DNA from: Thiothrix unzii
GTDB lineage: Bacteria > Pseudomonadota > Gammaproteobacteria > Thiotrichales > Thiotrichaceae
NCBI RefSeq assembly: GCF_017901175.1
Contig: NZ_CP072796.1
Coordinates: forward strand, 1-34,476
Length of the DNA stretch: 34,476 nt
Reading direction: 5' to 3'
Below are positions 2,740 to 22,515 of the stretch, one piece after another; position 1 is the stretch's first letter, and every line of letters begins with the position of its first letter. The position numbers and the translations under genes were made by a program. Below the pieces are notes generated by a model. It was not told where the DNA came from, searched no databases, and saw nothing but the letters and a program-made list of their open reading frames with translations.

Positions 2740-2803
2740 TGTATTTTTCCGCTGGTCTTCTGAGTGCTTGCGTTGTATCACCGTGCTGGTATACGCTGCA
2801 CGC

Positions 2804-3169
2804 ATGAAAAAACCAATCATCCAGCGTTTACTGTCGTTCTTGCTTGCCTGCGTTCTGCTGGGGCAAGTACAGGCGGCTATGGCTGATTGTCATATTGATG
2901 TTGTTCATACCGGGCATGACATTCACACCGCCCACCTCGTCAATGGTGGGAAGCATTTAGTGACATGGGATGGGCATGGACATAGCGGACAAAGCAGTGA
3001 TGTAGAAAACCATCAACACTGTTGCCATACCACAACGGCAAGTATTGCTCTCCCTGTCGTGTCTGTGGCGCTGCCATCGTCGAAAGCTATCAACATAACT
3101 TCAACCTTTACGCTCGACCATTACCGCGATCCTCTCGCCGATCTACTGATACGCCCACCCATCGCCTGA
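2804..3169 (+). CDS. CzcI-like secreted His-rich metal-binding protein
   Basis: This 121-residue protein begins with a signal peptide (basic start, hydrophobic run, A-x-A-type site near residues 24-26). The mature part is rich in His and Cys, including D-C-H, H-T-G-H, H-G-H-S-G and H-Q-H-C-C-H. Its size, location and composition match CzcI-type proteins, periplasmic regulators or metal buffers at the start of czc operons. I start at the ATG at 2804 because the frame upstream does not give a signal sequence. It lies 64 bases after the CDF gene. The CzcI assignment rests on composition and context. Confidence 0.65.
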   Translation: MKKPIIQRLLSFLLACVLLGQVQAAMADCHIDVVHTGHDIHTAHLVNGGKHLVTWDGHGHSGQSSDVENHQHCCHTTTASIALPVVSVALPSSKAINITSTFTLDHYRDPLADLLIRPPIA

Positions 3170-3221
3170 ATTTGTTTTCACTCAACCATTGGCTTGTTTA
3201 AAACATATTTAGGAATAGACC

Positions 3222-3623
3222 ATGAAAAACTTACTGTTAGCGGTAGTTCTACCGTTGCTGGCTGTCGGCTGTGCAGTCAATCCCGAAAAAACCGCCCTGC
3301 AAGCGCAAGGTATTAGTACTGATGGTGCGTCCACCGTAGCGTTCCAGAACGTGCACCTTGAAAACACCGCCAATGGCACAAGCCAAATACGCGGGAGTTT
3401 GGAGCGTATTGGGCGTGACCCTGTGCGCTTTGGGCATCTGGATTACACCGTGACCGATACCAGCGGCAAGGTGTTAGAGTCAGGCAAAGCCAACTACAGT
3501 GGCGCAATCAAACAACGCCACCCGCGTACCGCTTCGCGCTTTACCATTCCGCTCAAGCAAGCGTGGCAGCCCAGTTTGCATCATGCAACGCTGGTCTGGG
3601 ACGACAAAACCCACCAACAATAA
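3222..3623 (+). CDS. Lipoprotein of the metal-efflux cassette
   Basis: A 133-residue protein with a clear lipobox (L-A-V-G-C at residues 13-17), so it should be a lipid-anchored envelope protein. The mature region looks beta-rich, with alternating hydrophobic residues and a V-T-D-T-S-G-K-V segment that resembles small immunoglobulin-like periplasmic lipoproteins. Only a few His residues are present near the end. It is 12 bases upstream of the next gene and probably co-transcribed. Function unknown; a role in assembling or tuning the efflux complex is inferred from position. Confidence 0.7.
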   Translation: MKNLLLAVVLPLLAVGCAVNPEKTALQAQGISTDGASTVAFQNVHLENTANGTSQIRGSLERIGRDPVRFGHLDYTVTDTSGKVLESGKANYSGAIKQRHPRTASRFTIPLKQAWQPSLHHATLVWDDKTHQQ

Positions 3624-3635
3624 GGCGGACAAATC

Positions 3636-4187
3636 ATGCGAAAGTTACTTGCCGGTTGCGTATGCAGCCTAATGTTCGCCTGTGCCGCTGTTGCGGGTGA
3701 TGGGCATGACCACGGCGAAGAAAAAGCCGCTGCTGCCCCTGATTCCCCCGCTGCACCGCGTCTGGTGATGGAGTCTACCCAGTTTGAACTGGTAGGCACA
3801 TTGGAGGGTGACGGTTTGCACCTGTTCCTTGATGACCATGCCAGCAACGCCCCGGTAACGGATGCCAGTGTGGAACTGGACATTGCAGGGCAACGTATCA
3901 AAGCCGAACAAGAAGCGGATGGCAGTTACCATGCTGCAATGTCACAACCGCTCCCAGAAGGGGAATACGCGGTGATGGCAACCATTTTAGCCGGTGAAAC
4001 CAGCGACTTGCTGACGGGTGATCTGGATGTACACGCGGCGGAAGCGATGCACGTTGAACCCGCCACCGCCACTTCAGCCAGCGGTTGGGGCTTCTTGCCG
4101 TGGGTGCTGGGTTTGGTGGTCATTGCCTTGGCTCTCGTGGTGTTCACGTTGCGGCGTGACCGCCACCAACGGAGGGTACAGGCATGA
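3636..4187 (+). CDS. Membrane-anchored periplasmic accessory protein with GDGHDHGE motif
   Basis: This 183-residue protein has a signal peptide ending near residue 20, then G-D-G-H-D-H-G-E at the mature N-terminus. A beta-rich domain (about residues 40-135) resembles the accessory or N-terminal domains of heavy-metal adaptors, followed by a single transmembrane helix (about 150-172) and a basic cytoplasmic tail. It is therefore probably a periplasmic domain tied to the inner membrane. Its stop overlaps the adaptor start (ATGA), so translation is coupled. The motif and its codons are repeated almost base for base at the start of the adaptor, suggesting a duplication or conversion of a metal-binding segment. 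Confidence 0.72.
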   Translation: MRKLLAGCVCSLMFACAAVAGDGHDHGEEKAAAAPDSPAAPRLVMESTQFELVGTLEGDGLHLFLDDHASNAPVTDASVELDIAGQRIKAEQEADGSYHAAMSQPLPEGEYAVMATILAGETSDLLTGDLDVHAAEAMHVEPATATSASGWGFLPWVLGLVVIALALVVFTLRRDRHQRRVQA

Positions 4188-5290
4188 AACCAACTGCATT
4201 TTTGTTGATCGGTGCATTGTTGTTACCCGCGCTGGCAATAGCGGGTGATGGGCATGACCACGGCGAAGCTGCCCCGACCGCTGCCAACCCCAATGCCCCG
4301 CAACGCCTGCCGGATGGCAGCGTATTCTTGCCGAAAAAAACCCAACGTTTCATTCAGGTGCGTACCCAACCTGCGACGCTCGAAACCTTGCCGCGTAGCC
4401 TTATCCTGAATGGTCAGGTGGTGGCGGGTATGGATGCCAGCAGCAAAGTGCAGGCATTGCAAGCCGGACGGCTCGACATTGCCAATGGTAGCTTGCCAGC
4501 GATTGGCGACAAGGTAGAAAAGGGGCAAGTATTGGCTACCCTCACCCTTGCCAAAGATGCACAGGAAGGTACGAACCAAGCCGCCGAAGCTGCCGATTTG
4601 CAAGAACAACTCAAGCTGGCAGAACTGGATTACCAGCGGCTACAAGGGCTAGGCGACCTGATTCCACGCCGTGACGTGGATACCGCCGCTGCGACGGTAC
4701 GCAGCCTGCAAGCCCGTCTTGCCGTATTCCGCAAAGGGGCAAAAGGCGTTACCGAAACCGTGCGCTCCCCCATCAGTGGCATTGTCACCGCCAGTTACGC
4801 CGCCAACGGGCAAGCCGTACAAGCAGGCGACTTATTGCTGGACATCATCGACCCCAGCAAATTGCAGGTGGAAGCCGTCACCTATGACCCTGCCTTACCC
4901 GCTAACATTGCTGCCGCTAACGTCACCATCGGTAAGCAAACCCTCGCACTCCGCTATCAAGGCAACAGCCAACAATTACGCCAACAAGCCTTACCCCTGC
5001 GCTTCAGTGTAGAAGGTGAAACACTTGCCCAGCTCGCCGCAGGTTCACCCGTCCAAGTGACCGTGCAAACCCGTGAAACGCTGCAAGGTGTCGCTGTCCC
5101 CGCTGAAGCCCTCGCCCGTAACCCCAGTAACCAAACGGTGGTATGGGTAAAAACCACGCCGGAACAGTACGCGCCGCGTGTGGTGCAATACCAGCCGCTG
5201 GACGGGGAACGGGTGATGATTACCGCCGGTTTGCCAGACGGTGAGCGCGTGGTGGTGCAAGCCACCAATCTGATTAACCAAATCCGTTAG
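4184..5290 (+). CDS. czcB: RND efflux periplasmic adaptor (CzcB/CusB type)
   Basis: The 368-residue product is a membrane-fusion protein that links an RND pump to an outer-membrane channel. It has a signal peptide (about 1-20), the His/Asp motif G-D-G-H-D-H-G-E, a biotinyl-lipoyl-like half at about 65-130 (G-D-K-V-E-K-G-Q), a coiled-coil hairpin around 130-185, the second lipoyl half with S-P-I-S-G-I-V and a beta-barrel/membrane-proximal end. It overlaps the preceding gene by four bases and is nine bases from the pump gene. No outer-membrane factor gene (CzcC type) is present anywhere in the window, so the channel must come from elsewhere. Confidence 0.88.
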   Translation: MKPTAFLLIGALLLPALAIAGDGHDHGEAAPTAANPNAPQRLPDGSVFLPKKTQRFIQVRTQPATLETLPRSLILNGQVVAGMDASSKVQALQAGRLDIANGSLPAIGDKVEKGQVLATLTLAKDAQEGTNQAAEAADLQEQLKLAELDYQRLQGLGDLIPRRDVDTAAATVRSLQARLAVFRKGAKGVTETVRSPISGIVTASYAANGQAVQAGDLLLDIIDPSKLQVEAVTYDPALPANIAAANVTIGKQTLALRYQGNSQQLRQQALPLRFSVEGETLAQLAAGSPVQVTVQTRETLQGVAVPAEALARNPSNQTVVWVKTTPEQYAPRVVQYQPLDGERVMITAGLPDGERVVVQATNLINQIR

Positions 5291-5299
5291 GAGGCTGCC

Positions 5300-8200
5300 A
5301 TGTTTAACTGGTTATTGAACGCCAGCCTCGGCAACCGCCTGCTGGTGCTGGTGGCGAGTGCCATGCTGATGATTTACGGCGCGTTGCAACTGCCGCAAAC
5401 CGCCGTGGATGTCTTCCCCGACCTCAACCGCCCCACCGTCACGCTGATGACCGAAGCGGGTGGCATGGCTCCTGAAGAGGTGGAACGCCTGATCAGTTTC
5501 CCACTGGAAACCACCCTCAACGGCTTGCCAGGGATTGAGTCGGTACGCTCGGTATCCAGTGCCGGGTTGTCGTTTGTGTACGCGGTGTTTGACTGGGATA
5601 CGGACATTTACCGCGCCCGCCAGATGGTCAGCGAACGGCTGGGCGCGATGGAAAGCGGTTTGCCTGCTGGGATTGTGCCGCAAATGGGGCCGGTGTCGTC
5701 AATCATGGGGGAAATCATGATGGTGGCAGTGCCGATTGACCCCGCCAAAATTGACCCAATGGCAGTCCGTGAGTATGCCGACTGGGTGTTACGCCCGCGC
5801 CTGTTGTCGATTGCTGGCGTGGCGCAAGTCATCCCGATTGGTGGGGAAGTGCGCCAGTTTCAGGTACAGCCGGATATGCGCCGCATGACCGATCTGGGAA
5901 TTAGCCTTACGCAGTTGGCGGATGCGCTGGAAGGGTTTGCCAATAATACCTCTGGCGGGTTCATGGAACTGAGCGGCAAGGAATACCTGATCCGCCACAT
6001 TGGGCGCACTTCCAGCCTTGAGGATTTGCAGAACCTTGCGATTACTGCCACGGCGGGGCAACCGATTTTGCTCAAACAGGTGGCAAGCGTCACCTTTGCC
6101 CCCAAGGTCAAACGCGGGGATGCGGGGTTTAACGGTCAGCCTGCGGTGATATTGGGTATTCAGAAACAACCCGATGCGGATACTATCCAGCTTACCCAAG
6201 CGATAGAAACCGCGTTGGAGTCGATGAAAACCAGCCTGCCGCAAGGCATGGCAGAGCCGCGTGTGACCTTCCGCCAAGCCAGTTTCATTGAGGCTTCCAT
6301 CGGCAATCTGGAACACAAGCTGGTATTGGCATCACTGCTGGTGATGGTGATTTTGTTCCTGTTTTTGGGGAATTTCCGCACCACCTTGATTTCACTGATG
6401 GCAATCCCGTTGTCGATTTTGTGTACGGTGCTGGTATTCCGCTATTTGGATTTGTCGATTAATACCATGACGCTGGGCGGCTTGGCGATTGCGATAGGAG
6501 AACTGGTGGATGATGCGGTGGTGGGGGTCGAAAACGTGATTCGCCGCTTGCGTAATAACCGCTTGCACAAAACCCAACTTGCGCCCTTGAAGATCGTGTT
6601 GCACGCCACGCTGGAAGTGCGGTCGGCGATTGTGTACGCCACCATTATTGTGGTGCTGGTGTTTTTGCCGCTGTTCGCCTTGCCGGGGATGGAGGGCAAA
6701 CTGTTTGTGCCGTTGGGCATTGCCTACATTACCTCGATTCTGGTGTCGATGCTGGTGTCTGTGACCCTCACACCCGTGATGGCGTATTACCTGCTACCGA
6801 ATATGAAACAGCTTGACCACCCTGAACCGTGGTTGGTGCGCTGGCTCAAGCGTGGTTATGCCAAGGCGCTGGAAACCGTGCTGGATTACCCGCGTACCTT
6901 GCTCGGCATAGGCGCGGTGGCGGTATTGCTGGCGGGTAGCCTTGTGCCGTTGTTCCCGACCACGTTTTTGCCGCCGTTCAATGAAGGCACGTTGTTGGTG
7001 AGTGTGCGTTTGACCCCCGGTGTGACCTTGGCGGAATCGGTACGCATTGCCGCCAAAGCCGAAACCTTGCTGCAAGACGTGCCGGAAATTGCCCATGTCG
7101 GGCGACGTTCCGGGCGGGCAGAACTGGATGAACACGCAGAAGGGGTACACAACAGCGAACTGGACATTGCCTTAAAACCGTCAGAACGCTCAATGGATGT
7201 GGTGTATGGCGACATCCGTGCCCGCCTTGCACCGTTGCCAGTAAACGTGAGTATCGGGCAACCGATTTCCCACCGTATCGACCATATGTTGTCAGGGGTC
7301 AGGGCGCAGATTGCCATCAAGTTGTTTGGCGATGACCTCGACACGCTCCGCGCCCAAGGCGAACGCTTGCAACAAGCACTGGCGACGGTGGACGGCGTGG
7401 CAGACTTGAACATGGAAAAACAAGTGCTTGCCCCACAAATCAAGGTGTATGTGGATTATGCAGTAGCGGGGCAGTACGGGCTTTCAGGGGCGGCATTGCT
7501 GCGGGAACTGCAAATGTTGGTGGACGGCGCAACCATCAATGAAATCGTGGATGGCAACCGCCGCTTCAAGCTGGTGTTGCGCTTGCCGGAGGCGGCACGT
7601 TCCACCACCCAATTGCAGGATCTGCTCATCAGTACCCCACTGGGGCAAGTGCCGTTAAGTAAACTCGCCAAAATTGAGGAAAGCGACGGCCCCAACCAAG
7701 TGTCACGGGATAACGGGCAGCGGCGCATTGTGCTGTCCGCCAACGTGCAGGGTCGGGCTTTGTCAGAAGTGGTGGTGGATATGCGGGCAAAAGTGGCTGA
7801 TTTCACGTTACCAGAAGGCTACTTCATCACCATTGGTGGGCAGTTTGAGGCGCAGGAACAAGCGGCGCAACGCATCACGCTATTAGCGGCGGTAGCGGCG
7901 TTGCTGGTGTTTTTGACCCTGTATAGCCGTTACCAGTCCACCACGCTGGCATTGCTGATCATGGCGAATATTCCGCTGGCATTGGTCGGCAGCGTGATTG
8001 GGCTGTGGCTGTCGGGGCAACCGTTGTCGGTGGCAGCACTGATTGGTTTTATTACGCTGGCGGGTATTTCCACCCGTAACGGCATCCTCAAAACCAGCCA
8101 TTACCTCAACCTGATGCGGCTCGAAGGGGAAAGTTTTACCCGTGCGATGATTATTCGGGGGTCACTGGAACGCCTGTCCCCAGTGCTGATGACGGCATTG

Positions 8201-8404
8201 GTGGCAGCGTTCGCGCTCATGCCGCTGCTGTTTGAAGCCGAACAGCCGGGGACGGAAATTCTGCATCCGGTGGCGGTGGTGATTTTTTCCGGGCTGATCA
8301 GCTCAACCCTGTTGGATACCTTCCTCACCCCCGCCATGTTCTGGCTGTTTGGGCGCAAACCAGCGGAAAAGCTGCTGGATATGGCAAGCGATGAAGCCCT
8401 GTAA
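5300..8404 (+). CDS. czcA: Heavy-metal RND efflux pump (CzcA/CusA family)
   Basis: At 1034 residues this has the usual length and repeat structure of HME-RND proton/metal antiporters: 12 transmembrane helices with two large periplasmic loops. The conserved opening V-D-V-F-P-D-L-N-R-P-T-V is present. The proton-relay helix carries E401-L-V-D404-D405-A-V-V-G-V-E-N, which differs from the D-F-G...D-G-A-V-V form of classical Co/Zn/Cd CzcA and the form of Cu/Ag CusA, so I do not assign the metal. A strong GGAGG lies in front of the ATG. The second half has the expected related helix motif near L-A-G-I-S-T-R-N-G-I-L. Confidence 0.92.
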   Translation: MFNWLLNASLGNRLLVLVASAMLMIYGALQLPQTAVDVFPDLNRPTVTLMTEAGGMAPEEVERLISFPLETTLNGLPGIESVRSVSSAGLSFVYAVFDWDTDIYRARQMVSERLGAMESGLPAGIVPQMGPVSSIMGEIMMVAVPIDPAKIDPMAVREYADWVLRPRLLSIAGVAQVIPIGGEVRQFQVQPDMRRMTDLGISLTQLADALEGFANNTSGGFMELSGKEYLIRHIGRTSSLEDLQNLAITATAGQPILLKQVASVTFAPKVKRGDAGFNGQPAVILGIQKQPDADTIQLTQAIETALESMKTSLPQGMAEPRVTFRQASFIEASIGNLEHKLVLASLLVMVILFLFLGNFRTTLISLMAIPLSILCTVLVFRYLDLSINTMTLGGLAIAIGELVDDAVVGVENVIRRLRNNRLHKTQLAPLKIVLHATLEVRSAIVYATIIVVLVFLPLFALPGMEGKLFVPLGIAYITSILVSMLVSVTLTPVMAYYLLPNMKQLDHPEPWLVRWLKRGYAKALETVLDYPRTLLGIGAVAVLLAGSLVPLFPTTFLPPFNEGTLLVSVRLTPGVTLAESVRIAAKAETLLQDVPEIAHVGRRSGRAELDEHAEGVHNSELDIALKPSERSMDVVYGDIRARLAPLPVNVSIGQPISHRIDHMLSGVRAQIAIKLFGDDLDTLRAQGERLQQALATVDGVADLNMEKQVLAPQIKVYVDYAVAGQYGLSGAALLRELQMLVDGATINEIVDGNRRFKLVLRLPEAARSTTQLQDLLISTPLGQVPLSKLAKIEESDGPNQVSRDNGQRRIVLSANVQGRALSEVVVDMRAKVADFTLPEGYFITIGGQFEAQEQAAQRITLLAAVAALLVFLTLYSRYQSTTLALLIMANIPLALVGSVIGLWLSGQPLSVAALIGFITLAGISTRNGILKTSHYLNLMRLEGESFTRAMIIRGSLERLSPVLMTALVAAFALMPLLFEAEQPGTEILHPVAVVIFSGLISSTLLDTFLTPAMFWLFGRKPAEKLLDMASDEAL

Positions 8405-8436
8405 TTTTTAACTGTTGAATACCAAGGAGATAACCC

Positions 8437-8985
8437 ATGAAATTGTTACCCACGTTGTTAATCGCCTGCGGTTTGCTGGCTTCCCCAATGGTGTTGGCGG
8501 AAGAGCCACCCAAGCACGGTGAAACCGGACACGACCATGCAAAAGATCACGGGCAAACAACTACGCCTGAAACCAAACCGGAGGATACCCACAAAGGCGA
8601 ATCGGCGGAAGACCACGCCAAACACGAGCAAGAAGGGCATGATCACGCCCACGATGACAAACCCCATCACGGTGGTATTGTGGCGGTAGTCGATGAAATC
8701 CATCACGAACTAGTGACGGCGGAAGATGGTAAAGTCAGCCTATATGCCGAAGGTTTACCGCAAGGTGACGCACTCAAGGCGGTCAAAGTTCGCCTGACCG
8801 TGTTGAAAGGCAAAGACAAACAAGAAGCCGACTTAACGTTGGTGGAAGGGGATGAGCCGCGTTTTGATGCGCCAGCGGAGATGAAGCTGGGCGCGGGTGA
8901 TAAGGTGGTGGCGATGATCCAGCCAGCCGAAGGCAAGCCACGCATGGCGAAGTTTGAGATGCCGACTGAAACACCCGCCAAGTAA
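8437..8985 (+). CDS. His-rich secreted metal-binding protein
   Basis: A 182-residue protein with a signal peptide (about 1-21). The His/Asp/Glu-rich segment at residues 25-80 has repeats such as H-D-H-A-K-D-H and H-D-H-A-H-D-D, followed by a beta-rich folded domain (about 80-180) with no Cys. It is probably a periplasmic metal buffer or metallochaperone feeding the pump. It follows czcA by 32 bases with AAGGAG in front and is the last gene of the efflux operon. The fold is not recognised; the folded part resembles small periplasmic beta domains. Confidence 0.72.
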   Translation: MKLLPTLLIACGLLASPMVLAEEPPKHGETGHDHAKDHGQTTTPETKPEDTHKGESAEDHAKHEQEGHDHAHDDKPHHGGIVAVVDEIHHELVTAEDGKVSLYAEGLPQGDALKAVKVRLTVLKGKDKQEADLTLVEGDEPRFDAPAEMKLGAGDKVVAMIQPAEGKPRMAKFEMPTETPAK

Positions 8986-8992
8986 TATTCTG

Positions 8993-9352
8993 ATGGCATC
9001 AGTAGGCGGTAGTAATCTGGCGGGCATTGCCCAATATAACGAACGGTTGGTGTTACAACTGATTCGGCGTGCGCAAAGCCTTACCAAGGCGGACATTGCC
9101 CGCATTACGCATTTAAGTGCTCAAACTGCTTCTGTCATTATCAACAGGCTATTGGCAGAAAAACTGTTATGCAAACAGAAACCCCGTCATGAAGTCGGTA
9201 AAGTAGGGCAACCTGCCATACCGATTAGCCTTAACCCTTCCGGTGCTTATTCGTTAGGGGTGAAAATTGGGCGACGGGGGTTGGATGCGGTTTTAATCAA
9301 TTTCACGGGGGGAATTCTCCGGCGTTGGGTTCCTCTGCATAAAGGTACGTAA
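8993..9352 (+). pseudogene. ROK-family regulator, N-terminal fragment
   Basis: The 119-residue frame matches the beginning of ROK/NagC-type regulators. The winged helix-turn-helix (residues ~12-60, with L-T-K-A-D-I-A-R and T-A-S-V-I-I-N-R-L) is followed by the V-G-Q-P-A-I-P-I-S-L-N motif and the start of the sugar-kinase-like domain, then a stop. Full ROK regulators are near 400 residues, so about 70 percent is missing. The break lies just before the serine recombinase gene, consistent with a deletion or recombination boundary. A DNA-binding stub could still be made but is unlikely to respond to a sugar. Confidence 0.7.
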
Positions 9353-9375
9353 CCCACCACAGGATTTAGCCCCAG

Positions 9376-9972
9376 TTAAGCTTTTGCGGAATGCTCATTC
9401 CTGAGTTCCTTGATCCTGTCTGTTGGGAAATAGCGGTAAAAGGCTGTCCTGCCGATCCCAAGCTGGTCAATCACGTCACCAATGAAAGGGTAGTTCTCCG
9501 TGTCTTTGAGTAAGGCTTCTGCCTGCTTGATGGCCTGTTCATTCATGGCCTTTGGCCTCCCTCCCCGTCGCCCACGCCTATTGGCTGCGGCAAGACCCGC
9601 ACGGGTATTCTCGACAATCAGTTCCCGCTGGAACTCATCGAAAGCGGCGGTCATGTGGAAAAACAGCCGTCCTTCAGAGGTGCTGGTGTCGATGTTTTGG
9701 GTCAACACTTTGAGGGCGATTCCCCGCTCGTGGATATTTGCTGCCGTTTTGATAACTTGCGTCAACGAACGCGCCAACCGGGAAAGTTTCCAGACCACCA
9801 GCGTGTCCCCTTTTCGCAGGTAATCCAGTGCCGCCAGCAATTGTGGCCTGTCCCGATGCGAGCCAGATGCTTTTTCCGTAAAAACTTTTTCGCACCCCGC
9901 AGCTTTAAGGGCATCCATCTGGAGGGCGGTGTTTTGGTCTATGGTAGAGACGCGGGCATAACCAATCAGCAT
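9376..9972 (-). CDS. Serine recombinase, resolvase/invertase family
   Basis: This 198-residue protein starts Y-A-R-V-S with catalytic S9, has the L-S-R-L-A-R-S motif (R65, R68) and the E-helix region, then a C-terminal helix-turn-helix (about 160-185). This is the complete small resolvase/Pin-Hin type. Such enzymes resolve plasmid dimers or cointegrates or invert DNA. The gene faces away from the partition operon, with a perfect dyad at 10091-10110 upstream that could belong to its recombination site. It is not part of the Tn3 element, which has its own resolvase. It may serve multimer resolution of the plasmid. Confidence 0.9.
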   Translation of the reverse strand: MLIGYARVSTIDQNTALQMDALKAAGCEKVFTEKASGSHRDRPQLLAALDYLRKGDTLVVWKLSRLARSLTQVIKTAANIHERGIALKVLTQNIDTSTSEGRLFFHMTAAFDEFQRELIVENTRAGLAAANRRGRRGGRPKAMNEQAIKQAEALLKDTENYPFIGDVIDQLGIGRTAFYRYFPTDRIKELRNEHSAKA

Positions 9973-10090
9973 GGCAATTTATTCCTTAATGGGCTTGATG
10001 TAACTGTAAAAGAATGCCAGTTTCAGGACAAGGAAAACGGGTATGATTTGGCGGCAACCGCCTGCCTTTGGGGATGTGACATGACGCATC

Positions 10091-10110
10091 CCTAAAACGA
10101 CCGTTTTAGG
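10091..10110. promoter_or_regulatory. Perfect dyad upstream of the serine recombinase
   Basis: The nine-base arms CCTAAAACG and CGTTTTAGG surround AC. The dyad lies 118 bases upstream of the recombinase start and at the end of the partition operon. It could be a recombinase binding site or an operator. It lacks a T-run, so a terminator is less likely. A small GGCGG/CCGCC hairpin lies at about 10050. Confidence 0.45.
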
Positions 10111-10167
10111 AACAAAGGATTCCAAGACTACTGAAAATCATCCAAAAATGGTTAGCCAATACTCTTT

Positions 10168-10223
10168 AAAAGCTAAATTGCGAGCTTTTAGGCTTTTAGG
10201 CTTTTAGGCTTTTAGGCTTTTAG
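10168..10223. repeat. Centromere-like repeats at the end of the par operon
   Basis: An AAAAGCT/AGCTTTT inverted pair (about 10168-10190) runs into five tandem copies of the 8-base unit GCTTTTAG (10184-10223). The array overlaps the last codons and stop of the small par gene. The same CTAAAAGC core occurs in the inverted repeat upstream of parA, so both ends of the operon carry the same motif. Confidence 0.65.
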
Positions 10224-10524
10224 TGATTTTCCGTTGAATCTTGTATGCCTCTAAAGAAAGTTCTAATAATTCTACGAACTTAAGGTCGTCTTCAAAGGCA
10301 ATTCGCTTGAACTCCTTGAGGAAGTCGCCGCTTACCCGCGTACCGAATGCTTCGGTTCGACCAGTTTTGCGAGCTGGTCGTGACAATTTTACGGTGGCCT
10401 CATTAGGAATAACTGCTAAAGCAATTGGAGCAACTTCTGGAGCACTTAGGTTATCTCCCGCCGCCTCTACTTGTGGTGGATCACCAAAACGGTTACGTTT
10501 TTTCAGTTTCGATAAATCAGCCAT
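10204..10524 (-). CDS. Small partition partner (ParB-like adaptor / ribbon-helix-helix type)
   Basis: A 106-residue basic protein directly downstream of parA with a two-base gap. It has a flexible polar N-terminus and a C-terminal part (about 60-106) starting near R-V-S-G-D-F-L-K-E-F-K that looks like a ribbon-helix-helix domain: one short strand then two helices. This is the form of ParG-like centromere-binding proteins paired with ParF/ParA ATPases. I infer that it binds the CTAAAAGC repeats at both ends of the operon and stimulates ParA. The RHH call is by pattern only. Confidence 0.65.
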   Translation of the reverse strand: MADLSKLKKRNRFGDPPQVEAAGDNLSAPEVAPIALAVIPNEATVKLSRPARKTGRTEAFGTRVSGDFLKEFKRIAFEDDLKFVELLELSLEAYKIQRKITKSLKA

Positions 10525-10526
10525 GA

Positions 10527-11147
10527 TTACAACCTATCTGTGATGGACTGAACAAGTTCATCTGCCCGTTCATTCAGGCTTTTGTAGCGCGTTTCTGTCA
10601 CCGCCAGACCATCATTCTGTGCTTGCCGATACGCAGGTTTTTCTGGCAAGTGCCCTTTAAAGCAGTAATGACCCGCTTGCGTAATGTAGTGATTAGCGTC
10701 CTGTATTTCTGATTCGGTACTTACTCTGACCAAAGCGATACCGATACGCTCAGGTGGCACGCCTTTCTTGACCAGCTCATGGGCAAGTAAAACCGTTGGA
10801 ATTAAGTCATCACGACTCGCTCCAGTGGGTAGCACCAGCAAGTCTGCTACCTTGGCAATCTCCAACGTAGCAGTGCTGGCACGAGGCGCACCATCCAAAA
10901 TCAGGATGTCGAAACTCTCTGCCAATTCAAGCGCATCTCTCACTTTACCAAACACTTCCACCGAACCTACGGGATCATTCCCGTTATTCAGCCGATGGCG
11001 ATGCCATTCCGATACAGTACCCTGCTGGGTATCCAGATCAGCCAGCTTGATGGATAAACCACTCTTTTTCGCCTCACACGCAAAAGCACGGGCAAGAGTA
11101 GATTTACCAACCCCCCCTTTCTGCGAAAGAAATGCAATGATTGCCAT
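10527..11147 (-). CDS. parA: ParA-family partition ATPase
   Basis: This is a deviant Walker-A ATPase: K-G-G-V-G-K-S-T at residues 10-17, D-L-D-T-Q-Q-G at 37-43 and the I-L-I-L-D Walker B at 81-85. It is 206 residues from the ATG at 11147, the size of small ParF-type partition ATPases with no N-terminal DNA-binding domain. An alternative TTG start at 11159 adds four residues and has a better-spaced AGGA, so the true start is open. It forms an operon with the small partner gene and drives plasmid segregation over the nucleoid. Confidence 0.9.
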   Translation of the reverse strand: MAIIAFLSQKGGVGKSTLARAFACEAKKSGLSIKLADLDTQQGTVSEWHRHRLNNGNDPVGSVEVFGKVRDALELAESFDILILDGAPRASTATLEIAKVADLLVLPTGASRDDLIPTVLLAHELVKKGVPPERIGIALVRVSTESEIQDANHYITQAGHYCFKGHLPEKPAYRQAQNDGLAVTETRYKSLNERADELVQSITDRL

Positions 11148-11165
11148 GTTGTAACCCAAAATAAT

Positions 11166-11187
11166 TCCTATAGGAGTGACTATAGGT
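11166..11187. promoter_or_regulatory. CTATAGG repeats in the parA leader
   Basis: Two copies of CTATAGG, the first inside the palindrome CCTATAGG, lie 7-30 bases before the parA start. They probably belong to the promoter or operator for autoregulation. Confidence 0.4.
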
Positions 11188-11198
11188 CAAAACGCCTT

Positions 11199-11268
11199 AA
11201 AAGCTAAATAGTCTAAAAACTTAAGAGCTAAAAAGACTAAAAGCATGAAATTAGACTATTTAGCTTTT
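11199..11268. repeat. Centromere/operator inverted repeat upstream of parA
   Basis: Perfect 18-base arms (AAAAGCTAAATAGTCTAA at 11199-11216 and its complement at 11251-11268) flank a 34-base spacer that holds a third, degenerate copy of the unit. It lies upstream of parA, where small RHH partition proteins bind. It shares the AAAAGCT core with the array at 10168-10223. Confidence 0.7.
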
Positions 11269-11319
11269 AGACTCTTAGTGGTGATGATGCAGGATATTTA
11301 GGATCGAGAGAATGGGACG

Positions 11320-11481
11320 ATGTTTGATTTGTCTTTTCTTGATGTTAAGAATTGGTATCGCTTACACGTACTGAGTGCCTACCCTGCCCCGGAACGTCGC
11401 GGCGGTGGAAAAATTGGCTTCTTCAAAATTGCCTATAACCTGCGGATGGGAAAACCTTTACCTTCCAATCCCCACAAATAA
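11320..11481 (+). CDS. Small protein of unknown function (53 residues)
   Basis: An ATG opens a 53-codon frame encoding a compact, basic, aromatic-rich peptide with W-Y-R-L near residue 13 and a G-G-G-K-I-G-F-F-K stretch in the middle. It is followed two bases later by a strong hairpin, which supports a real short transcript. The ribosome site is weak (GGGA four bases upstream). No family recognised. Confidence 0.4.
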   Translation: MFDLSFLDVKNWYRLHVLSAYPAPERRGGGKIGFFKIAYNLRMGKPLPSNPHK

Positions 11482-11483
11482 CA

Positions 11484-11503
11484 AAGCCCGCTTAAGCGGG
11501 CTT
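11484..11503 (+). terminator. Hairpin after the 53-residue ORF
   Basis: Perfect eight-base arms AAGCCCGC/GCGGGCTT around TTAA, immediately after the stop codon. There is no long T-run, so termination may be weak. Confidence 0.5.
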
Positions 11504-11655
11504 CGCCAGAATTTCTTCTGGTATTCAGAACACCTTTACCGGACTTGGCCTGACCTCTTGGGTAGCGGGATGTCTGGAAAACCAGTCTGCAACATCCTGA
11601 ATCACGTATCTGTGATGTGTTTTCATCATAAGAAATTGCAGCAGTAACTACAATA

Positions 11656-11874
11656 TCAAGCTTCAACCACACACAACCGACACAAGCCACCATCTGTGGC
11701 ATCACGGAAAGCATCCAAATAGACTTTAGAACCTACTGGAAACCATTCCAAAAAATCCAAAACCAACCCTAGTTGTAGGCATGGAAGCCCTGTCGCAGGC
11801 TTCCAAATAGGGTTAGCCGTATCTGTAAAATGCTTAATTGATTGATATTTATACAGGGGGGGGGTAAACTGCAA
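11656..11874 (-). CDS. Possible small ORF with a poly-C tract near its start
   Basis: This 72-residue frame from a TTG has a plausible amino-acid mix in its second half (L-V-L-D-F-L-E-W-F-P-V-G-S-K). A run of nine G on the + strand (about 11856-11864) falls at codons 4-7, so slippage would switch the frame on or off. No family recognised and no good ribosome site; it may be a remnant. Confidence 0.25.
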   Translation of the reverse strand: MQFTPPLYKYQSIKHFTDTANPIWKPATGLPCLQLGLVLDFLEWFPVGSKVYLDAFRDATDGGLCRLCVVEA

Positions 11875-11941
11875 CTCCCCTGATTAATAATAAAAGCACG
11901 GGGTTAGTTCGGTATAAATTAAGTATGTTGTAAACCTTTGT

Positions 11942-11976
11942 GGCACGTTCTCCCCTGTTCGTGCCTTTTCTTTTTT
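11942..11976 (+). terminator. Intrinsic terminator in repeat B copy 1
   Basis: The GGCACG/CGTGCC stem with a 12-base loop is followed by TTTTC and six T. It is conserved in copy 2. Confidence 0.65.
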
Positions 11977-12020
11977 CCTGCCCATGCAAAGCTCTTCATA
12001 AGCATGATGTTACGTATTAA

Positions 12021-12042
12021 TTTGTAACAACATTGTTACAAA
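12021..12042. promoter_or_regulatory. Perfect GTAACA/TGTTAC palindrome (operator-like)
   Basis: Ten-base arms TTTGTAACAA and TTGTTACAAA surround CA. The second copy (22486-22507) has one mismatch at the last base. Related GTAACA half-sites occur at 27115-27155. It is probably the binding site of a dimeric repressor, which I cannot identify. Confidence 0.55.
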
Positions 12043-12155
12043 TCGGAGTGACTACCCATCAGATGGCTTATCCCCTATTGCCCTCACCAACCTTTTTTAA
12101 ACCTCAAATGTGCTAGTCAATTGATACGGCATTGGGTAAGTCGTCCAAAAGTAAA

Positions 12156-12180
12156 AAGCCCACCGGGTTACGGCGGGCTT
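12156..12180 (+). terminator. Hairpin of the AAGCCC/GGGCTT type
   Basis: The AAGCCC/GGGCTT outer stem and CCG/CGG inner stem are separated by one A-C mismatch. A-rich before, with no T-run after, so on the minus strand it would end with a T-run and could terminate leftward transcription. Confidence 0.4.
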
Positions 12181-12327
12181 CTTGGAACTTCCTTCAAGAG
12201 ATCAAACTTTGAGGGAAGTCCCGATTCTACATAATTGGCTATAAATCGCGCAACGACAAAAAGTGAATGCGGACAAGGTGTTAATGCTGTTGCTCACAGG
12301 TATATCCACGGGTTCTGGGGATAACGC

Positions 12328-12373
12328 TTGCAATACGGTAGTAGGGAAATACAACAATACTGCCGTATTGCAA
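12328..12373. promoter_or_regulatory. Inverted repeat with 11-base arms upstream of DUF29 gene 1
   Basis: TTGCAATACGG (12328-12338) and CCGTATTGCAA (12363-12373) are perfect complements. A third half-site CAATAC lies just before the right arm and forms a tighter dyad with it. It sits about 80 bases before the DUF29 start. This may be an operator; module 2 lacks this sequence. Confidence 0.45.
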
Positions 12374-12453
12374 ATGTTACATTTCCGCTTGCACTTCCCC
12401 CTACCCTACCTACCTGCTACCCTCAAGCTATCGACAACACAGGAGGCACGGAC

Positions 12454-12900
12454 ATGGGTGCTGTAGCTTACGATCAAGACCTTTACAGTTGGTCACTGGA
12501 ACAGGCAAGGCTGTTACGTGAACGCAAGTTTGACCAAATTGACCTAGAACACATCATTGAGGAAATCGAGGACATGAGCAAATCAGAAAAACGGGCATTA
12601 GAATCGTTTTTGGAAACCCTGCTCATGCATTTACTGAAATGGCAATACCAGCCGTTTTATATAGGCCGCAGGAGTTGGGAACTGACTATTATTGAGCAGC
12701 GTAAGCGGCTCAAGAAACACATGAGGGAAAACCCCGGTCTTAAATCCAAACTGGAAGAGGCCATTCTGGATGCCTACGACTTGGCAAAATCCGGTGCTGA
12801 AAAAGAAACGGGAATCCCCTCCGCTAGCTTCCCTGAAACCTGCCCTTGGGAGTATGAGCAATTTATTAATCCTGATTTCTGGCCTGAACCAACCGAATAA
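12454..12900 (+). CDS. DUF29-family protein, module 1
   Basis: The 148-residue product has the DUF29 pattern: an opening Y-D-Q-D-L-Y-S-W, then L-E-H-I-I-E-E-I-E-D-M near residue 33-43, L-L-M-H-L-L-K-W-Q-Y-Q near 60-70, and a C-terminal C-P-W-E-Y-E-Q-F segment. DUF29 proteins are small, mostly helical, cytoplasmic and of unknown function, common on plasmids and in cyanobacteria and proteobacteria. I chose the ATG at 12454 because AGGAGG lies nine bases upstream; an upstream in-frame ATG is unsupported. The leader and first codons are the same as in the module 2 copy at 25962, while the rest has diverged. Confidence 0.8.
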   Translation: MGAVAYDQDLYSWSLEQARLLRERKFDQIDLEHIIEEIEDMSKSEKRALESFLETLLMHLLKWQYQPFYIGRRSWELTIIEQRKRLKKHMRENPGLKSKLEEAILDAYDLAKSGAEKETGIPSASFPETCPWEYEQFINPDFWPEPTE

Positions 12901-12901
12901 A

Positions 12902-12925
12902 AAAAGCCGGGTTCCCCCGGCTTTT
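12902..12925. terminator. Bidirectional terminator
   Basis: The arms AAAAGCCGGG/CCCGGCTTTT around TTCC work in both directions. It lies between the convergent DUF29 gene and the large membrane protein gene. Confidence 0.75.
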
Positions 12926-12936
12926 CCATTTCCTGA

Positions 12937-14442
12937 CTAAGCGAGAATGTACTTAGGCTTGCCATTTGAGTAATCCGGGTTAGGAGTCAGCACCCCCTCA
13001 CCCACTGCCCGCGCTTGCCAGTTCAACCAAATTCGCCCCATTTCTTGAACCGTCAACCCCGTTTTGTCTGCCCCGCTTTTGGTGCGTTGGCTAATAAACC
13101 GTTTTGCATCCCGTGCGCCGGGAGAAATGGTTTGGTTGGAAACCTGCCCTACCCAGTCTGGATAAAGGTCGGTTTCTGTCTGCTGCGCCGTATCCGTCAA
13201 CCGTTCCGTGCTACCGTTTTGTGACCGTGCGAGCACGGTATCAGCAACCGTTCCAGACCGTGCGGGCACGGTGTCCGTAACGGTTGGTAGGATGGCCGGA
13301 GTAGGGCGGTCGAGTGGTGCATCCCGGAACTGTTGCCCCCCTTGGCGCAACTCAGTACGGTAGGTCATGCCAGCCAATTCCATTGCCTTGGCAAGCTGTT
13401 CCGGGGATTGCTTGAAGCCGCTGCTTTCACGCACTTGCAGGTTATCCAGCTTGTCGGCGGCACTGTGGTACACCTGTTCCCGTGCCTGTTGTGCCTTCGC
13501 CATTTCGGTGGCGATGGTTTCCCCCGTTTTGTGGAGCAGGGAAGCACTGCCAGTTTGTAGGGTTGGTTCAGGCTTGACGGTGGCTACTGGAGGTTTTGCC
13601 AACTTGTCGGCATTCATTCGGCGTAGGGCATTGCCATAGGCAAACACAGCAAGGATGTGTTGCAACTCAAAGATGGTAATCATCACCGCCACTGCCACAA
13701 TCATGCCGTCATTGGTGTCACCACCCACCACCTTGCCGACCACTTTGAACATGGGCTTGTCGAAACGCTCAAGCAGCTTTTCATTGTGGGCGTTGGTTTT
13801 ATCCACCAGCTCACCGCTGACGGTTGCGGCGGTCTGGTTAGCCATGTCGATAGCCTTCAATGCACCTGTGACTTTGCCCTCGCTGACATGGCAATCCTTC
13901 ACACGGCCTTGCTTGAGCATTTCTTGGCACTTGTTCAAATTGGCTTGCGCTTTCATCAGTGCATCCGTCAAGGCAGGGGAGGTGTTGATGGCCACACTCC
14001 CCACCTCGGCAGGTTTCAACAACCCCACCTGTTCCGCTGCATTGTTGCTGATGTGTTGTTGGTTACTGGTTGCGCTGAACAACTCAAACAGGATACCCGC
14101 AGAAGCAAACAAGACCATCGCGAAGCGTTGCCCCGCCGTCATGTGGAAACCCTCAGAGCGGTTTAAAGCGATGTCCTCGTAAACCGCCTCCTTGCTGGAG
14201 GCAAGGAAATAGGCAAGGATAAAACTGGTCACAGAAAATATTGCCAAGGCAATGTATTCGTTACTGTTGTTTTCAAGAAACGACGCAATACCCCACACAT
14301 CAGAGACGTACAGCATAAACACCGCAACAATGTACAAACAAAATGTTGCCCACCGCGCCCACTGCATCAGGTGATAAGCGCGTACTGCCCGTGCCTTGGC
14401 ATCGAAGATGGCGGCGGTGTCGTTTGTAAACATGGATTTCAT
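12937..14442 (-). CDS. Large membrane protein of the replicon module, copy 1
   Basis: A 501-residue protein with four predicted membrane helices at about 31-50, 63-82, 106-124 and 246-268. The loop between helices 3 and 4 (about 126-245) should face the periplasm and has two Cys (172, 184). The ~230-residue tail would be cytoplasmic, with a helical part (about 300-360), a low-complexity linker and a C-terminal ~45-residue unit ending K-Y-I-L-A that contains a possible helix-turn-helix. Residues 1-383 match copy 2 with only a few changes; from about residue 384 the two diverge sharply. The gene follows the small membrane gene by 12 bases and is downstream of rep. Family unknown. Confidence 0.75.
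   Translation of the reverse strand: MKSMFTNDTAAIFDAKARAVRAYHLMQWARWATFCLYIVAVFMLYVSDVWGIASFLENNSNEYIALAIFSVTSFILAYFLASSKEAVYEDIALNRSEGFHMTAGQRFAMVLFASAGILFELFSATSNQQHISNNAAEQVGLLKPAEVGSVAINTSPALTDALMKAQANLNKCQEMLKQGRVKDCHVSEGKVTGALKAIDMANQTAATVSGELVDKTNAHNEKLLERFDKPMFKVVGKVVGGDTNDGMIVAVAVMITIFELQHILAVFAYGNALRRMNADKLAKPPVATVKPEPTLQTGSASLLHKTGETIATEMAKAQQAREQVYHSAADKLDNLQVRESSGFKQSPEQLAKAMELAGMTYRTELRQGGQQFRDAPLDRPTPAILPTVTDTVPARSGTVADTVLARSQNGSTERLTDTAQQTETDLYPDWVGQVSNQTISPGARDAKRFISQRTKSGADKTGLTVQEMGRIWLNWQARAVGEGVLTPNPDYSNGKPKYILA
13198..13286. repeat. Paired palindromes in the variable 3' end of the membrane gene, copy 1
   Basis: Two palindromes with arms ACCGTGC/GCACGGT lie at 13224-13239 and 13257-13272, 33 bases apart. 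CAACCGTT (13245) and AACGGTTG (13279) flank the second one. They encode a repeated peptide (T-V-x-D-T-V-x-A-R-S), so coding repeats are the simple explanation, but a DNA site is possible. Confidence 0.5.
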
Positions 14443-14832
14443 GGTGATTCCCCCTTAAAACATCCCAACCAGCAAAAACATCCCTAAACAGATCAACAGC
14501 GTTTCAGCGTCGTCGTACCCCGTCAGCACCGCATAGGTGAAGAACAGGGCAAGCGCGAATTGCCCAGACAAGGCAATCGCCGAAACGCCAAAAAGCTGAA
14601 AATACGTAAAGATGCAGTAGGCGATGTAGAGCAGGGCAGTCACAGCCAACAGCCGCACTACCACATGGAAGAACAACGCCCAATCGACAGGGGCAGGGTG
14701 GTTAGGCGTGGATACCGTCGTATCCCTAGGGGTAGTAGCGTGGTTGTCTGTAAAGTGTTCGCGCACAGACGGGCGCAGGTTGCTATCATGCGTGTGCATT
14801 TTCAGTTTCCCGTATAAATTGAAAGTGAAGTC
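13295..14832. repeat. Long duplication, copy 1 (with 27878-29416)
   Basis: About 1.54 kb near-identical to 27878-29416. It spans the first ~383 codons of the large membrane gene, the whole small membrane gene and its leader. Identity stops abruptly inside the large gene and again just before rep. It is a possible substrate for homologous recombination within the plasmid. Confidence 0.9.
14455..14799 (-). CDS. Small membrane protein of the replicon module, copy 1
   Basis: A 114-residue protein with a polar N-terminal tail (about 1-38) and three hydrophobic segments (about 42-65, 72-92 and 98-114), ending in the last helix. It lies between rep and the large membrane gene and is probably co-transcribed with both. 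It is almost identical to 29038-29382. The composition resembles small plasmid membrane proteins that pair with a larger partner. No family recognised. GGGA eight bases upstream of the ATG is the likely ribosome site. Confidence 0.7.
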   Translation of the reverse strand: MHTHDSNLRPSVREHFTDNHATTPRDTTVSTPNHPAPVDWALFFHVVVRLLAVTALLYIAYCIFTYFQLFGVSAIALSGQFALALFFTYAVLTGYDDAETLLICLGMFLLVGMF

Positions 14833-14873
14833 CTGTGCTGGCTGTAGGAGGCCAGTGCAGGGCGATCTTGGCT

Positions 14874-15803
14874 TTACGCCTCTTTGGGCTTGCGCCCGCG
14901 TTTCTTTTTAGGTGTTTCGCCTCCTTCTAATGGCATATCAATCTGTTCTGCATATTTCCAAGAAAACTCTAAAGAACCCACTCGTTTCTTATTTTCTTTA
15001 TCCTTTATTGCCTTGAATTCAATATCCATATGACATTTAGCTTTCAGTTCTTTTATCGGCTTATCAATACAATGTGCTTTTATATCTCCGTAAATATAAC
15101 TTTCTGGAACATCAAGAGAATTACGGTAATCTTCTACTGATATAAGTAATCGTTTAGTATCTTTCCATTGCATTAGGAGTTCATAAAGTCGCCATGAGTA
15201 TGTTGATTTAAGGTCAACTGTACTTTGTAGTTTGTAAATAATTTTATCGCCATTATTTAACATGGATAAACTAGGAGAAACTTCTGGGCTAAAACGTAAT
15301 TCAACCCAACCTTCACCTGTATGATATTTTGCTGACGATACCCAATGTATTTTTTCAGTTGTACGTCCTTTGGGTGTTTCTCTCGTAATGGTAATGTAGC
15401 GATTAAATAAAGCGTCTGCTGCTTCCTGTAAGTCTCTGTAGAAATTCTTTGAGCCTTTAACTCCCATTTTCTCTGCATAGTCAACAGCCACAATCCTGAC
15501 AACCAACTGACTAGGCTGTGGAGCTGTAGGGTGTATCTTGGAAACGGCATATCTGATAAGTCGCGTCTGGTGAATCGTTAACCCATGTGCAGCTTTTACC
15601 AACGCCTTTGCTAGATGTATCTCCCCATCATGCCCATATATGGTCTGCAAATTGTCAGGCGGAGGAGATAATCTACTTCTCTCTATGATCTCACCAGTAG
15701 GCGGCGGTGTAGACTGCAACCGTTTTCGTGCCTGCTCCCATGTCTCGCCAGGACGGGCATTTTTACTGATATATGAATCATCAATACGTTGTTCTTCTAC
15801 CAT
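14874..15803 (-). CDS. repB: Rep_3-family replication initiator, module 1
   Basis: A 309-residue Rep_3/RepB-type initiator made of two winged-helix domains. Visible marks are the opening helix L-T-I-H-Q-T-R-L-I-R-Y near residue 76, W-V-S-S-A-K-Y-H in the middle, and the S-W-R-L-Y-E-L-L-M-Q-W-K motif near 205 typical of the second domain. A basic tail (K-K-K-R-G-R-K-P-K) ends the protein. I start at ATG 15803; a GTG two codons upstream overlaps the likely AGG site. The gene is clearly more AT-rich than its neighbours, suggesting a different origin. It should bind the 22-base iterons upstream at 15898-16029. Confidence 0.85.
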   Translation of the reverse strand: MVEEQRIDDSYISKNARPGETWEQARKRLQSTPPPTGEIIERSRLSPPPDNLQTIYGHDGEIHLAKALVKAAHGLTIHQTRLIRYAVSKIHPTAPQPSQLVVRIVAVDYAEKMGVKGSKNFYRDLQEAADALFNRYITITRETPKGRTTEKIHWVSSAKYHTGEGWVELRFSPEVSPSLSMLNNGDKIIYKLQSTVDLKSTYSWRLYELLMQWKDTKRLLISVEDYRNSLDVPESYIYGDIKAHCIDKPIKELKAKCHMDIEFKAIKDKENKKRVGSLEFSWKYAEQIDMPLEGGETPKKKRGRKPKEA

Positions 15804-16187: not shown

Positions 16188-16228
16188 GGGTGAATTTAAA
16201 CAAACGACACCAAAGTCCCATAGGATTT
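16188..16228 (+). repeat. Solo Tn3-type terminal repeat
   Basis: This 41-base segment begins GGGTGAA and ends CAAAGTCCCATAGGATTT, matching the terminal repeats of the transposon at 17802 with a few changes in the middle. It has the same orientation as the left end. It is therefore a leftover end or the outer end of a larger element that would carry the RNA-like block. Confidence 0.75.
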
Positions 16229-16504: not shown

Positions 16505-17801
16505 CCAGATGGGGGTTTACCCCCATACCCCCAGTCTTGCAGGGCGCGAGGCAGGGTGAGTGGTAGCTTGAAACGTATCACTCGCGGGTGTAACTCGTGC
16601 GAACGTGGAAGACCGTCAGTTCTGGCTTTAATGCCAATAGAGCCGCAGTAGCGGGATTACGCGGCGTAAGGCCATCACTTCGATTTACTGGAAGTGCGCC
16701 GCTACAAAGGGGCAAGCCCCTTTATCCAAAGAGTCCACCCGTGCCGCTGGGTAGATATAGTTTTATCCGAGTTGAGTCACCTCAAGCATTCAGAATTCCC
16801 CCCCGCCAAAGGCAAGGGGGAATGGTTTGCGCCGGTGCCGCGCTGTCTGGGTAGCCAAAAGCTGGAAACGCCGCGAACGGCTTCTACCCTGTACCAAACC
16901 GGAGGTTTGCACACGGTGCTTTGCTGATCACACGGACTGCGCCAACAGCCCGCCCCTGATCAAGTGCCTATCCGTCCCCCGCCAAGGGGACACGCTTGTT
17001 ACTGCCGCAGGCTTTCGGCTTGTTGATGGATATATTTATATCCATCAACTGCATGAACAGGATGCCACTCCTGTTGTTTTCATGCTCGTGTTAAGGCTTC
17101 GACCATATCGCCCCAACACTTTCCCGCCTACTTGCCTGCTCTCCCACTCTGCTACCATCCCGCCCCGGAGCCACCGGGAACGGTTAAACTGGGCAGAGCT
17201 TCCCACGTTAGCTTGCATTGTCGCTGTTATGCGCCGCTGCCCTCCATTTGCTTGCTAGGCTACGCCTTTTGCCGGGTTTCCCCGTCAATTTCCACCCCGC
17301 GAGATTCCAAAGCCGGTGGTGTACTCACAAACAACTTTCATTGGGCATGGCCAGACTCTCAGTCACGGCTCACAACAACTTACCCCATAGCATCCTCGTG
17401 TGATGCATTTACAGGCTTGAGCTATCCAGCGATCTTTCCGGCTTGCGCCAAAAAGTACCAGCGTCTCCAGGTTTCCCCTCCACGCCCTGACACCTCACGG
17501 TATCCTCAGCAGCCCACCTGTGGGGCTTGGGTTATACGGTCTCCCGCATCCCCCAAGGCGGATTTGTAACATTTGTTGCCAAATGGTTACGCACCACTTC
17601 AACACAAACAGGGTTTCACCTATCACTAGGTTCCCGTTTCCGTGTCGCCCAATCCCCGGCTTATCCGGTCGGATTGGGTCGGAAGGTGGGATTGCACCAC
17701 CTAACGCCCGTCGTAGCCGCGCCAGCTTAATTACAAGCACGCGGCTTCAGCAGTAACTGTCCCTAGGTTGGCAGCCTAAGGACTCACACAAGTGGCTGCT
17801 T
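16505..17801 (+). ncRNA. Candidate giant structured RNA, copy 1 (3' end cut by Tn3 element)
   Basis: About 1.3 kb without a convincing gene, homologous to 31520-33193. Many stems are visible, for example CGGGT/ACTCG (16585-16597), CACTTC/GAAGTG (~16677), ACCG-GGAA-CGGT (~17167), GCATC/GATGC (17390-17406), a bulged hairpin at 17566-17590, CCCAATCC/GGATTGGG (~17650-17675) and AGCCGCG/CGCGGCT (~17715-17745). Differences from copy 2 keep the pairing, and G-U pairs are possible only in + strand RNA. Ends are estimates. The match to copy 2 stops where the transposon begins. Class unknown; the size recalls ornate large RNAs such as GOLLD, ROOL or OLE, but I do not recognise any of them here. Confidence 0.65.
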
Positions 17802-17842
17802 GGGTGAACTTGCATAAACGTCATCAAAGTCCCATAGGATTT
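17802..17842 (+). repeat. Left terminal inverted repeat of the Tn3 element
   Basis: Complementary to 22317-22357 over about 41 bases with one T/C difference in the middle. It starts GGG as Tn3-family ends do. Confidence 0.9.
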
Positions 17843-17864: not shown

Positions 17865-18165
17865 TTGAAGTCCAACAGAACGAAAACCTACGCTAAGCAC
17901 CACAACCGCACGTTGAGCCGCCAGCGAATAAGTTCCCCGCGTTTAGCCGTGGCGGTAGCACAACCGCCTATCTTGCCAATGCTGAATACAGCACACGAAC
18001 AGCATTGTTCCGCACGACTACAGCACTATTCAGACTGGAATAGCATTACCCAGCATTATTGCAGCATTCCAACAGCATTATTCCGCAATGCTAATTGGCT
18101 GCTACATAAATGCGGAATAACGCTGATTGTTGCTGGAAAATGAGGTTAGAAGTCGATGGCAAGAT
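17865..18165. repeat. CAGCATT-rich repeat region in the transposon left arm
   Basis: No gene seen. From about 17980 to 18130 the motif CAGCATT or CAGCAYTATTC recurs at least seven times. One copy with ATTCCGCA and its complement TGCGGAATAA forms an inverted repeat around 18075-18125. It may be part of the resolution site or a transposase/resolvase binding array. Confidence 0.45.
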
Positions 18166-18167
18166 GT

Positions 18168-18207
18168 GTATTTGCTATACCGCCACAAGTGACGGCACAG
18201 CAAATAC
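18168..18207. promoter_or_regulatory. Dyad GTATTTGCT/AGCAAATAC
   Basis: Nine-base perfect arms 22 bases apart, spanning 40 bases, the size of a resolvase subsite pair or a regulator site. It lies between the repeat region and the tnpR 3' end. Confidence 0.4.
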
Positions 18208-18282
18208 TAGGTAACTTATTCGCCTTCGGCTCAACGATCTTGCCCTTGCAGGGAGTGGGCGCGGTAGGCATGGTAGTGGCAT

Positions 18283-18321
18283 GGATGAATGTAACAAACA
18301 ACACCAAAGTCTCATAAAATT
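18283..18321 (+). repeat. Degenerate internal terminal-repeat-like sequence
   Basis: It starts GGATGAATGT and contains CAAAGTCTCATAAAATT, aligning over ~39 bases with the transposon ends at reduced identity and in the left-end orientation. It is probably an old end left by an earlier insertion. Confidence 0.6.
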
Positions 18322-22316: not shown

Positions 22317-22357
22317 AAATCCTATGGGACTTTGGTGACGTTTATGCAAGTTCACCC
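22317..22357 (-). repeat. Right terminal inverted repeat of the Tn3 element
   Basis: Ends ...AAGTTCACCC and pairs with the left end. It lies 53 bases after the tnpA stop. Confidence 0.9.
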
Positions 22358-22515
22358 AATAAAAGTACGGGGTTAGTTCGGTGTAAATTAAGTATGTTGT
22401 AAACCTTTGTGGCACGTTCTCCCCTGTTCGTGCCTTTTTTTTCCTGCCCATGCTAGGCTCTTCATGCACGAAGTTTGCGTATCAATTTGTAACAACATTG
22501 TTACAAGTCGGAGCA
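22358..22515. repeat. Repeat B, copy 2
   Basis: It matches 11889-12050: leader, GGCACG/CGTGCC terminator hairpin with eight T (22411-22442) and the TTTGTAACAA dyad at 22486-22507 with one mismatch. It starts at the first base after the transposon's right end. Confidence 0.65.
22411..22442 (+). terminator. Intrinsic terminator in repeat B copy 2
   Basis: GGCACG/CGTGCC stem followed by eight T. Confidence 0.65.

Follow-up and report, generated by a model that had tools for sequence, protein, structure and literature searches.

Two copies of a plasmid RNA in Thiothrix unzii probably belong to the circularly permuted group II ribozymes, and their neighbour AcpG may be a maturase-like protein

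The window, 34,476 nucleotides of Thiothrix unzii contig NZ_CP072796.1, looks like a Thiothrix plasmid (its best record is a 21 kb one of T. fructosivorans, which matches at 95% over 58% of positions 1-15000), and it carries a block of about 1.3 kb twice. The initial annotation took this block for a giant structured RNA of a new kind, read from the plus strand. The question raised by the locus is what this RNA is, from which strand it is read and which protein might work with it.

BLAST between the two copies bore out the repeat of about 1.3 kb as two related blocks, with 94% identity between 16782-17802 and 32159-33193 and, in a second matching pair, 83% identity between 16505-16775 and 31525-31794. 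The compensatory changes and the 1-base and 6-base indels listed in the initial annotation were also present in the two-copy alignment. However, the span 16505-17801, reported as a single element, fuses two features, because the 83% block is found again on contig C1 of this genome, accompanied by a relative of the small lipoprotein-like ORF of copy 2 (locus L114, 1218-1619), and no ribozyme match was found in that C1 region. The first 0.3 kb or so is a separate block, and CGGGT/ACTCG, which had served as the G-U example, falls inside it and outside the ribozyme. The statement that the repeat holds no convincing gene fails for copy 2, where an ORF of 115 codons (31808-32155) sits between the two parts; its N-terminal sequence looks like a lipoprotein signal, and it gave no Pfam match. 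The separate block was common to several plasmids of the genome (the two window positions above, 1584-1754 in L114, and 1130-1200 and 10244-10314 in L115), and in copy 2, as on C1, it lies upstream of the lipoprotein-like ORF; its hairpins have pairs that change together.

The rest of each copy is, very probably, a circularly permuted (CP) group II ribozyme of the 'T-large' type on the minus strand, which is the best explanation of the locus (PMC8637638, cited throughout from excerpts). The duplicated RNA is a known published class, here with additional members. The proposal of a large structured RNA with covariation therefore held, while its novelty, its plus strand and its borders did not, the class being published (PMC8637638) and the first ~300 bases being excluded. 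A known family of intron type explains the block, an outcome that the initial annotation had named as speaking against its own proposal, though no Rfam 15 family reached threshold at the ribozyme copies. On the minus strand of 17 loci, the class signature runs from P2 with a GCCA-type loop through D5 (AGC; bulge UG or UC), D6 and its bulged A, the AAU and a variable linker to the start of D1, which is opened by GGGCGACACGGAAACGGG or close variants. Both window copies have D5 with the AGC triad, about five pairs and a UN bulge, D6 with a bulged A, D5-D6 placed 5' of D1, and a 3' splice site (NU) preceding the 5' splice site (GGGCG); acpG, a frequent though non-obligatory neighbour of the class, is present as well (33922 to 192 over the joint). 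The order P1-P2-D5-D6-3' splice site-linker-5' splice site-D1, as well as the covariation and the strand, could be read from the sequence itself.

The features shared with 'T-large' as described in PMC8637638 are D5 and D6 before D1, the NU and GGGCG splice motifs, a short linker, the bulged A in D6, P1 and P2, a size of about 900 nt, a plasmid location and acpG nearby; unlike 'T-large' elsewhere in that account, the window plasmid has two copies, with identical linkers and a different D1 hairpin. Two of the in vitro RNAs of PMC8637638 come from pPNAP05 and A. radioresistens, and both pPNAP05 (L025) and an A. radioresistens plasmid (L018) were among the homologues found here.

From the two-copy alignment, copy 1 of the ribozyme was placed at 16855-17802 and copy 2 at 32245-33195, both on the minus strand, with the 5' end of copy 1 at the high coordinate and its 3' border approximate; comparisons of 17 loci and 51 sites gave the domains. 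Each copy is about 950 nt, a usual size for the CP group II class (average ~900 nt, PMC8637638) and not one that places it among the largest bacterial RNAs, as had been suggested. The P1 hairpin (17789-17802; 33178-33195 in copy 2), located from sequence and repeat matches, is followed by the P2 hairpin with GCCA in its loop (17759-17783; 33150-33174), and both are predicted in the consensus fold. The outer P1 pairs of copy 2 are replaced in copy 1 because a Tn3-type end starts at about 17800 and shortens P1 there. Then come D5, the catalytic domain with the AGC triad and a two-base UG bulge (17716-17747; 33107-33138; from the alignment and pair counts), and D6 (17676-17709; 33067-33100), whose bulged A at 17679 (33070 in copy 2) is the predicted branch point. 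Between the 3' splice site, AAU (17673-17675; 33064-33066), and the 5' splice site, GGGCG (from 17650; from 33041), lies a 22-nt linker that is identical in both copies (17651-17672; 33042-33063) and is predicted to be excised as an RNA circle. The D1-to-D4 region, with GGGCG first (16855-17650; 32245-33041), takes its domain names by analogy with PMC8637638 and was treated as one stretch, at the level of a consensus fold. It includes a D1 hairpin (17566-17590) that the two-copy alignment showed to be exchanged for a different hairpin in copy 2 (32963-32981).

GOLLD, ROOL and OLE are large RNAs that are present on mobile elements, and the window RNA is likewise large and on a mobile element; unlike them, it has a different architecture and no Rfam match to them. 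A new giant RNA class read from the plus strand, perhaps one that forms a cage as GOLLD and ROOL do, would suit its size, covariation, lack of an Rfam match and presence on plasmids. The strand comparison, made on 16 of the 51 sites, aligned as whole elements, showed otherwise: the minus-strand consensus fold scored -425 with 497 G-U and 67 A-C cells, and the plus-strand fold scored -317 with 83 G-U and 174 A-C cells. Since G-U cells outnumber A-C cells on the minus fold and the reverse holds on the plus fold, the ribozyme strand is minus, and the direction first given was wrong for the ribozyme. As the D5, D6 and splice-site signature also fits the published ribozyme class, we give a new class almost no credence.

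The pairing of D5 and D6 was counted over 49 segments, 48 of them distinct, and 94.6% of cells were paired. Double changes were seen in 17 of 21 pairs (49 loci), with 159 double-change cells observed where shuffles gave 41.8 and slid registers 12-55, and there were 56 G-U vs 10 A-C cells when one invariant U-G pair was left out. For the P2-D2 pseudoknot, a 7-base complement was present in a hairpin loop of both copies, the mean run being 5.88 vs 5.82 in shuffles (43/49 sites); for EBS1-IBS1, both copies have an AATCC in D1 able to pair with GGATT ahead of the splice site, with mean runs not above shuffles. That the locus is a degenerate ordinary group II intron, its protein lost and its domains not permuted, could explain the group II-like D5, D6 and splice-site motifs. 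It is extremely improbable, since D5 and D6 stood 5' of the GGGCG splice site in 49 of 49 loci counted, P1 and P2 come before D5, and the D5/D6 pairing was kept through many double changes. The CP ribozymes of the window share D5, D6, the branch A and a GUGYG-like 5' splice site with canonical group II introns, and differ from them in the reordered domains and in having no ORF in the RNA.

Distant BLASTN found homologues of the block in 35 plasmid records, from genera including Escherichia, Acinetobacter, Azotobacter, Paraburkholderia, Halomonas, Gluconacetobacter and Deinococcus, and in 34 of the 35 the best match lay where the plasmid gene table, itself incomplete, has no annotated feature. 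The phages searched gave no match to the block, and 2 of 63 genomes of the host family had one, namely the host's own and one 27-base match. The splice-site pattern was met in 34 stretches of 84,980 species genomes and in none of the viral contigs; its sole hits in 398 genomes of the phylum were the two sites of the window itself, and the reversed control had none. At a Pandoraea locus (L017 2876-4141), the ribozyme has an IS256-type gene as its neighbour, and D5 is not where it would be expected.

The remark that the block lies next to the origin in both modules was correct, as each copy is beside a Rep3-type initiator gene (Rep3_N) and iteron-like short direct repeats. Because there are two Rep3 initiators, each adjoining repeats and a ribozyme, the window may be two fused plasmids. 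The rep genes near both modules, and some transfer-like genes near the element elsewhere, would fit a DNA element, a replication or transfer origin conserved as folded DNA. The widely used cold-expression plasmid pMtBL (NZ_AJ224742, Pseudoalteromonas TAC125) has the ribozyme signature (5' splice site at 3244, plus strand) and acpG (110-817, plus strand) on one strand, outside OriR. Its minimal origin OriR was mapped to 1918-2759 (PMC10033558, excerpts), and vectors with OriR only replicate but get lost over generations, whereas whole pMtBL is stable, which the authors connect with a partition system (PMC6848147, excerpts). The ribozyme RNA is therefore not the pMtBL origin, its 5' splice site being outside OriR and origin-only vectors replicating without it. 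Relatives moreover show ribozyme activity in vitro (PMC8637638), and a DNA element is thus very unlikely compared with a CP group II ribozyme.

In RNAs from five species, the bulged A of D6 attacked the downstream 5' splice site in vitro, and in a second step the freed end attacked the 3' splice site; the products were a small circular RNA and a branched, T-shaped one (PMC8637638). By analogy, the window copies would release a circle of 22 nt and leave a branched RNA of roughly 930 nt. Their linker of 22 nt is within the published range of 15-86 nt (PMC8637638), and linkers across the 51 sites were 14-74 nt. The same mapping gave 32 nt for Polaromonas, equal to the published value, and 62 nt for A. 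radioresistens vs 50 published (PMC8637638). In Polaromonas cells the RNA was expressed and processed RNA was not seen, according to the excerpts of PMC8637638.

What is new here is the fold and role that the models make likely for AcpG. The frame of acpG stays open over the joint of the circular record (33922-34476 and then 1-192, plus strand, stop codon at 190-192; 248 codons in all), was identified by a profile match and stands head-to-head with ribozyme copy 2. Among the 50 records having a site, acpG was within the fetched stretch of 40, head-to-head on the opposite strand in 40/40; PMC8637638 reports other orientations too, and in pMtBL both parts are on the same strand. The AcpG profile matched TTHC007 of pTT8 in its plasmid (E 9e-14), the type AcpG locus in PMC8637638. 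In the excerpts of that paper, the discoverers expressed surprise that CP group II RNA should manage with no maturase, and they recognised no homology for AcpG.

Predicted models of two AcpG proteins, which are 32% identical, both ranked group II proteins first over nearly full length. All 28 matches listed for the first model with at least 150 aligned residues were named as reverse transcriptase, telomerase, viral RNA polymerase or Prp8, and so were 13 of the 14 listed for the second at that length, the 14th (4ty8) having a title without a molecule name. A weak profile alignment ran collinear with motif C, the region of motif E and the thumb. These three observations argue against a likeness that is a chance arrangement or a generic alpha-beta fold, with AcpG acting elsewhere and the RNA still a CP group II ribozyme; such a coincidence is possible but rather doubtful. 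No conserved aspartate pair corresponding to the YxDD catalytic aspartates was found in AcpG (one acidic residue among 8 invariant columns), and for this reason AcpG is not classed as a reverse transcriptase. In a Pfam search up to E 10, neither RVT_1 nor GIIM matched any of 7 AcpG proteins, and such matches as there were belonged to chance families.

On these models, we lean towards AcpG as a polymerase-dead, finger-less descendant of a group II intron protein and the dedicated maturase of a domain-reordered ribozyme. RNA and RT-derived cofactor would form a plasmid-borne pair in which mobility has been traded for plasmid upkeep, a partnership of the same kind as that between the RNA core of the spliceosome and Prp8. 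AcpG would be a shortened maturase whose modelled parts resemble the palm and thumb of the canonical group II intron-encoded protein, unlike which it has no conserved catalytic aspartate pair and, by length and model range, no fingers. Unlike Prp8 it is bacterial and ~230-250 aa, and the comparison is one in kind that claims no direct kinship. From the fold comparison, it may bind the ribozyme RNA and help it fold, in cis or from another plasmid. In Novacetimonas hansenii C110, the ribozyme (L024) and acpG (L120) are on separate sister plasmids.

The RNA was found in 21 of 5426 E. coli genomes. All 15 large plasmids with the RNA carried acpG, and all 7 plasmids of ~3 kb with the RNA were without it, which indicates that AcpG is not strictly needed; L009 and L027 are E. 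coli plasmids of this small kind. One of the 7 strains with such a small plasmid holds both kinds, the ~3 kb plasmid without acpG and a large plasmid with both parts. The role of CP group II ribozymes is described as not known in PMC8637638. The RNA-protein complex might help to maintain the plasmid, for instance through reverse splicing into the nucleic acid of competitors; this is the least certain step and is put forward tentatively. Should AcpG prove to be a maturase derived from an RT, it would be the protein that was missing, and the complex could be reconstituted in vitro. Like Prp8, it would then be an RT-like protein that lost its polymerase activity yet remained with a group II RNA in rearranged form, a point with a bearing on how the spliceosome arose. 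As pMtBL, a well-used genetic system for which a plasmid-free strain exists, has both ribozyme and acpG, the function is directly testable.

Several further features of the plasmids were observed. In the window an NYN-domain gene (544-1218, plus strand) follows acpG, and in Azotobacter a PIN-domain gene does (L011 9331-10338, plus strand), which may be coincidence. Four related Tn3-type ends, three direct (16188-16228, 17800-17842 and 18283-18316, plus strand) and one inverted (22317-22359, minus strand), surround ribozyme copy 1 and the resolvase and transposase genes. An Rfam traJ-II match lies beside the Tn3 genes (18157-18254, plus strand; 42.3 vs a cut-off of 40 bits), an Rfam sroH match of 99 bits was found on this plasmid (11483-11624 of the window, minus strand), and HlyD-family and AcrB-family efflux genes occupy 4184-8404 on the plus strand.
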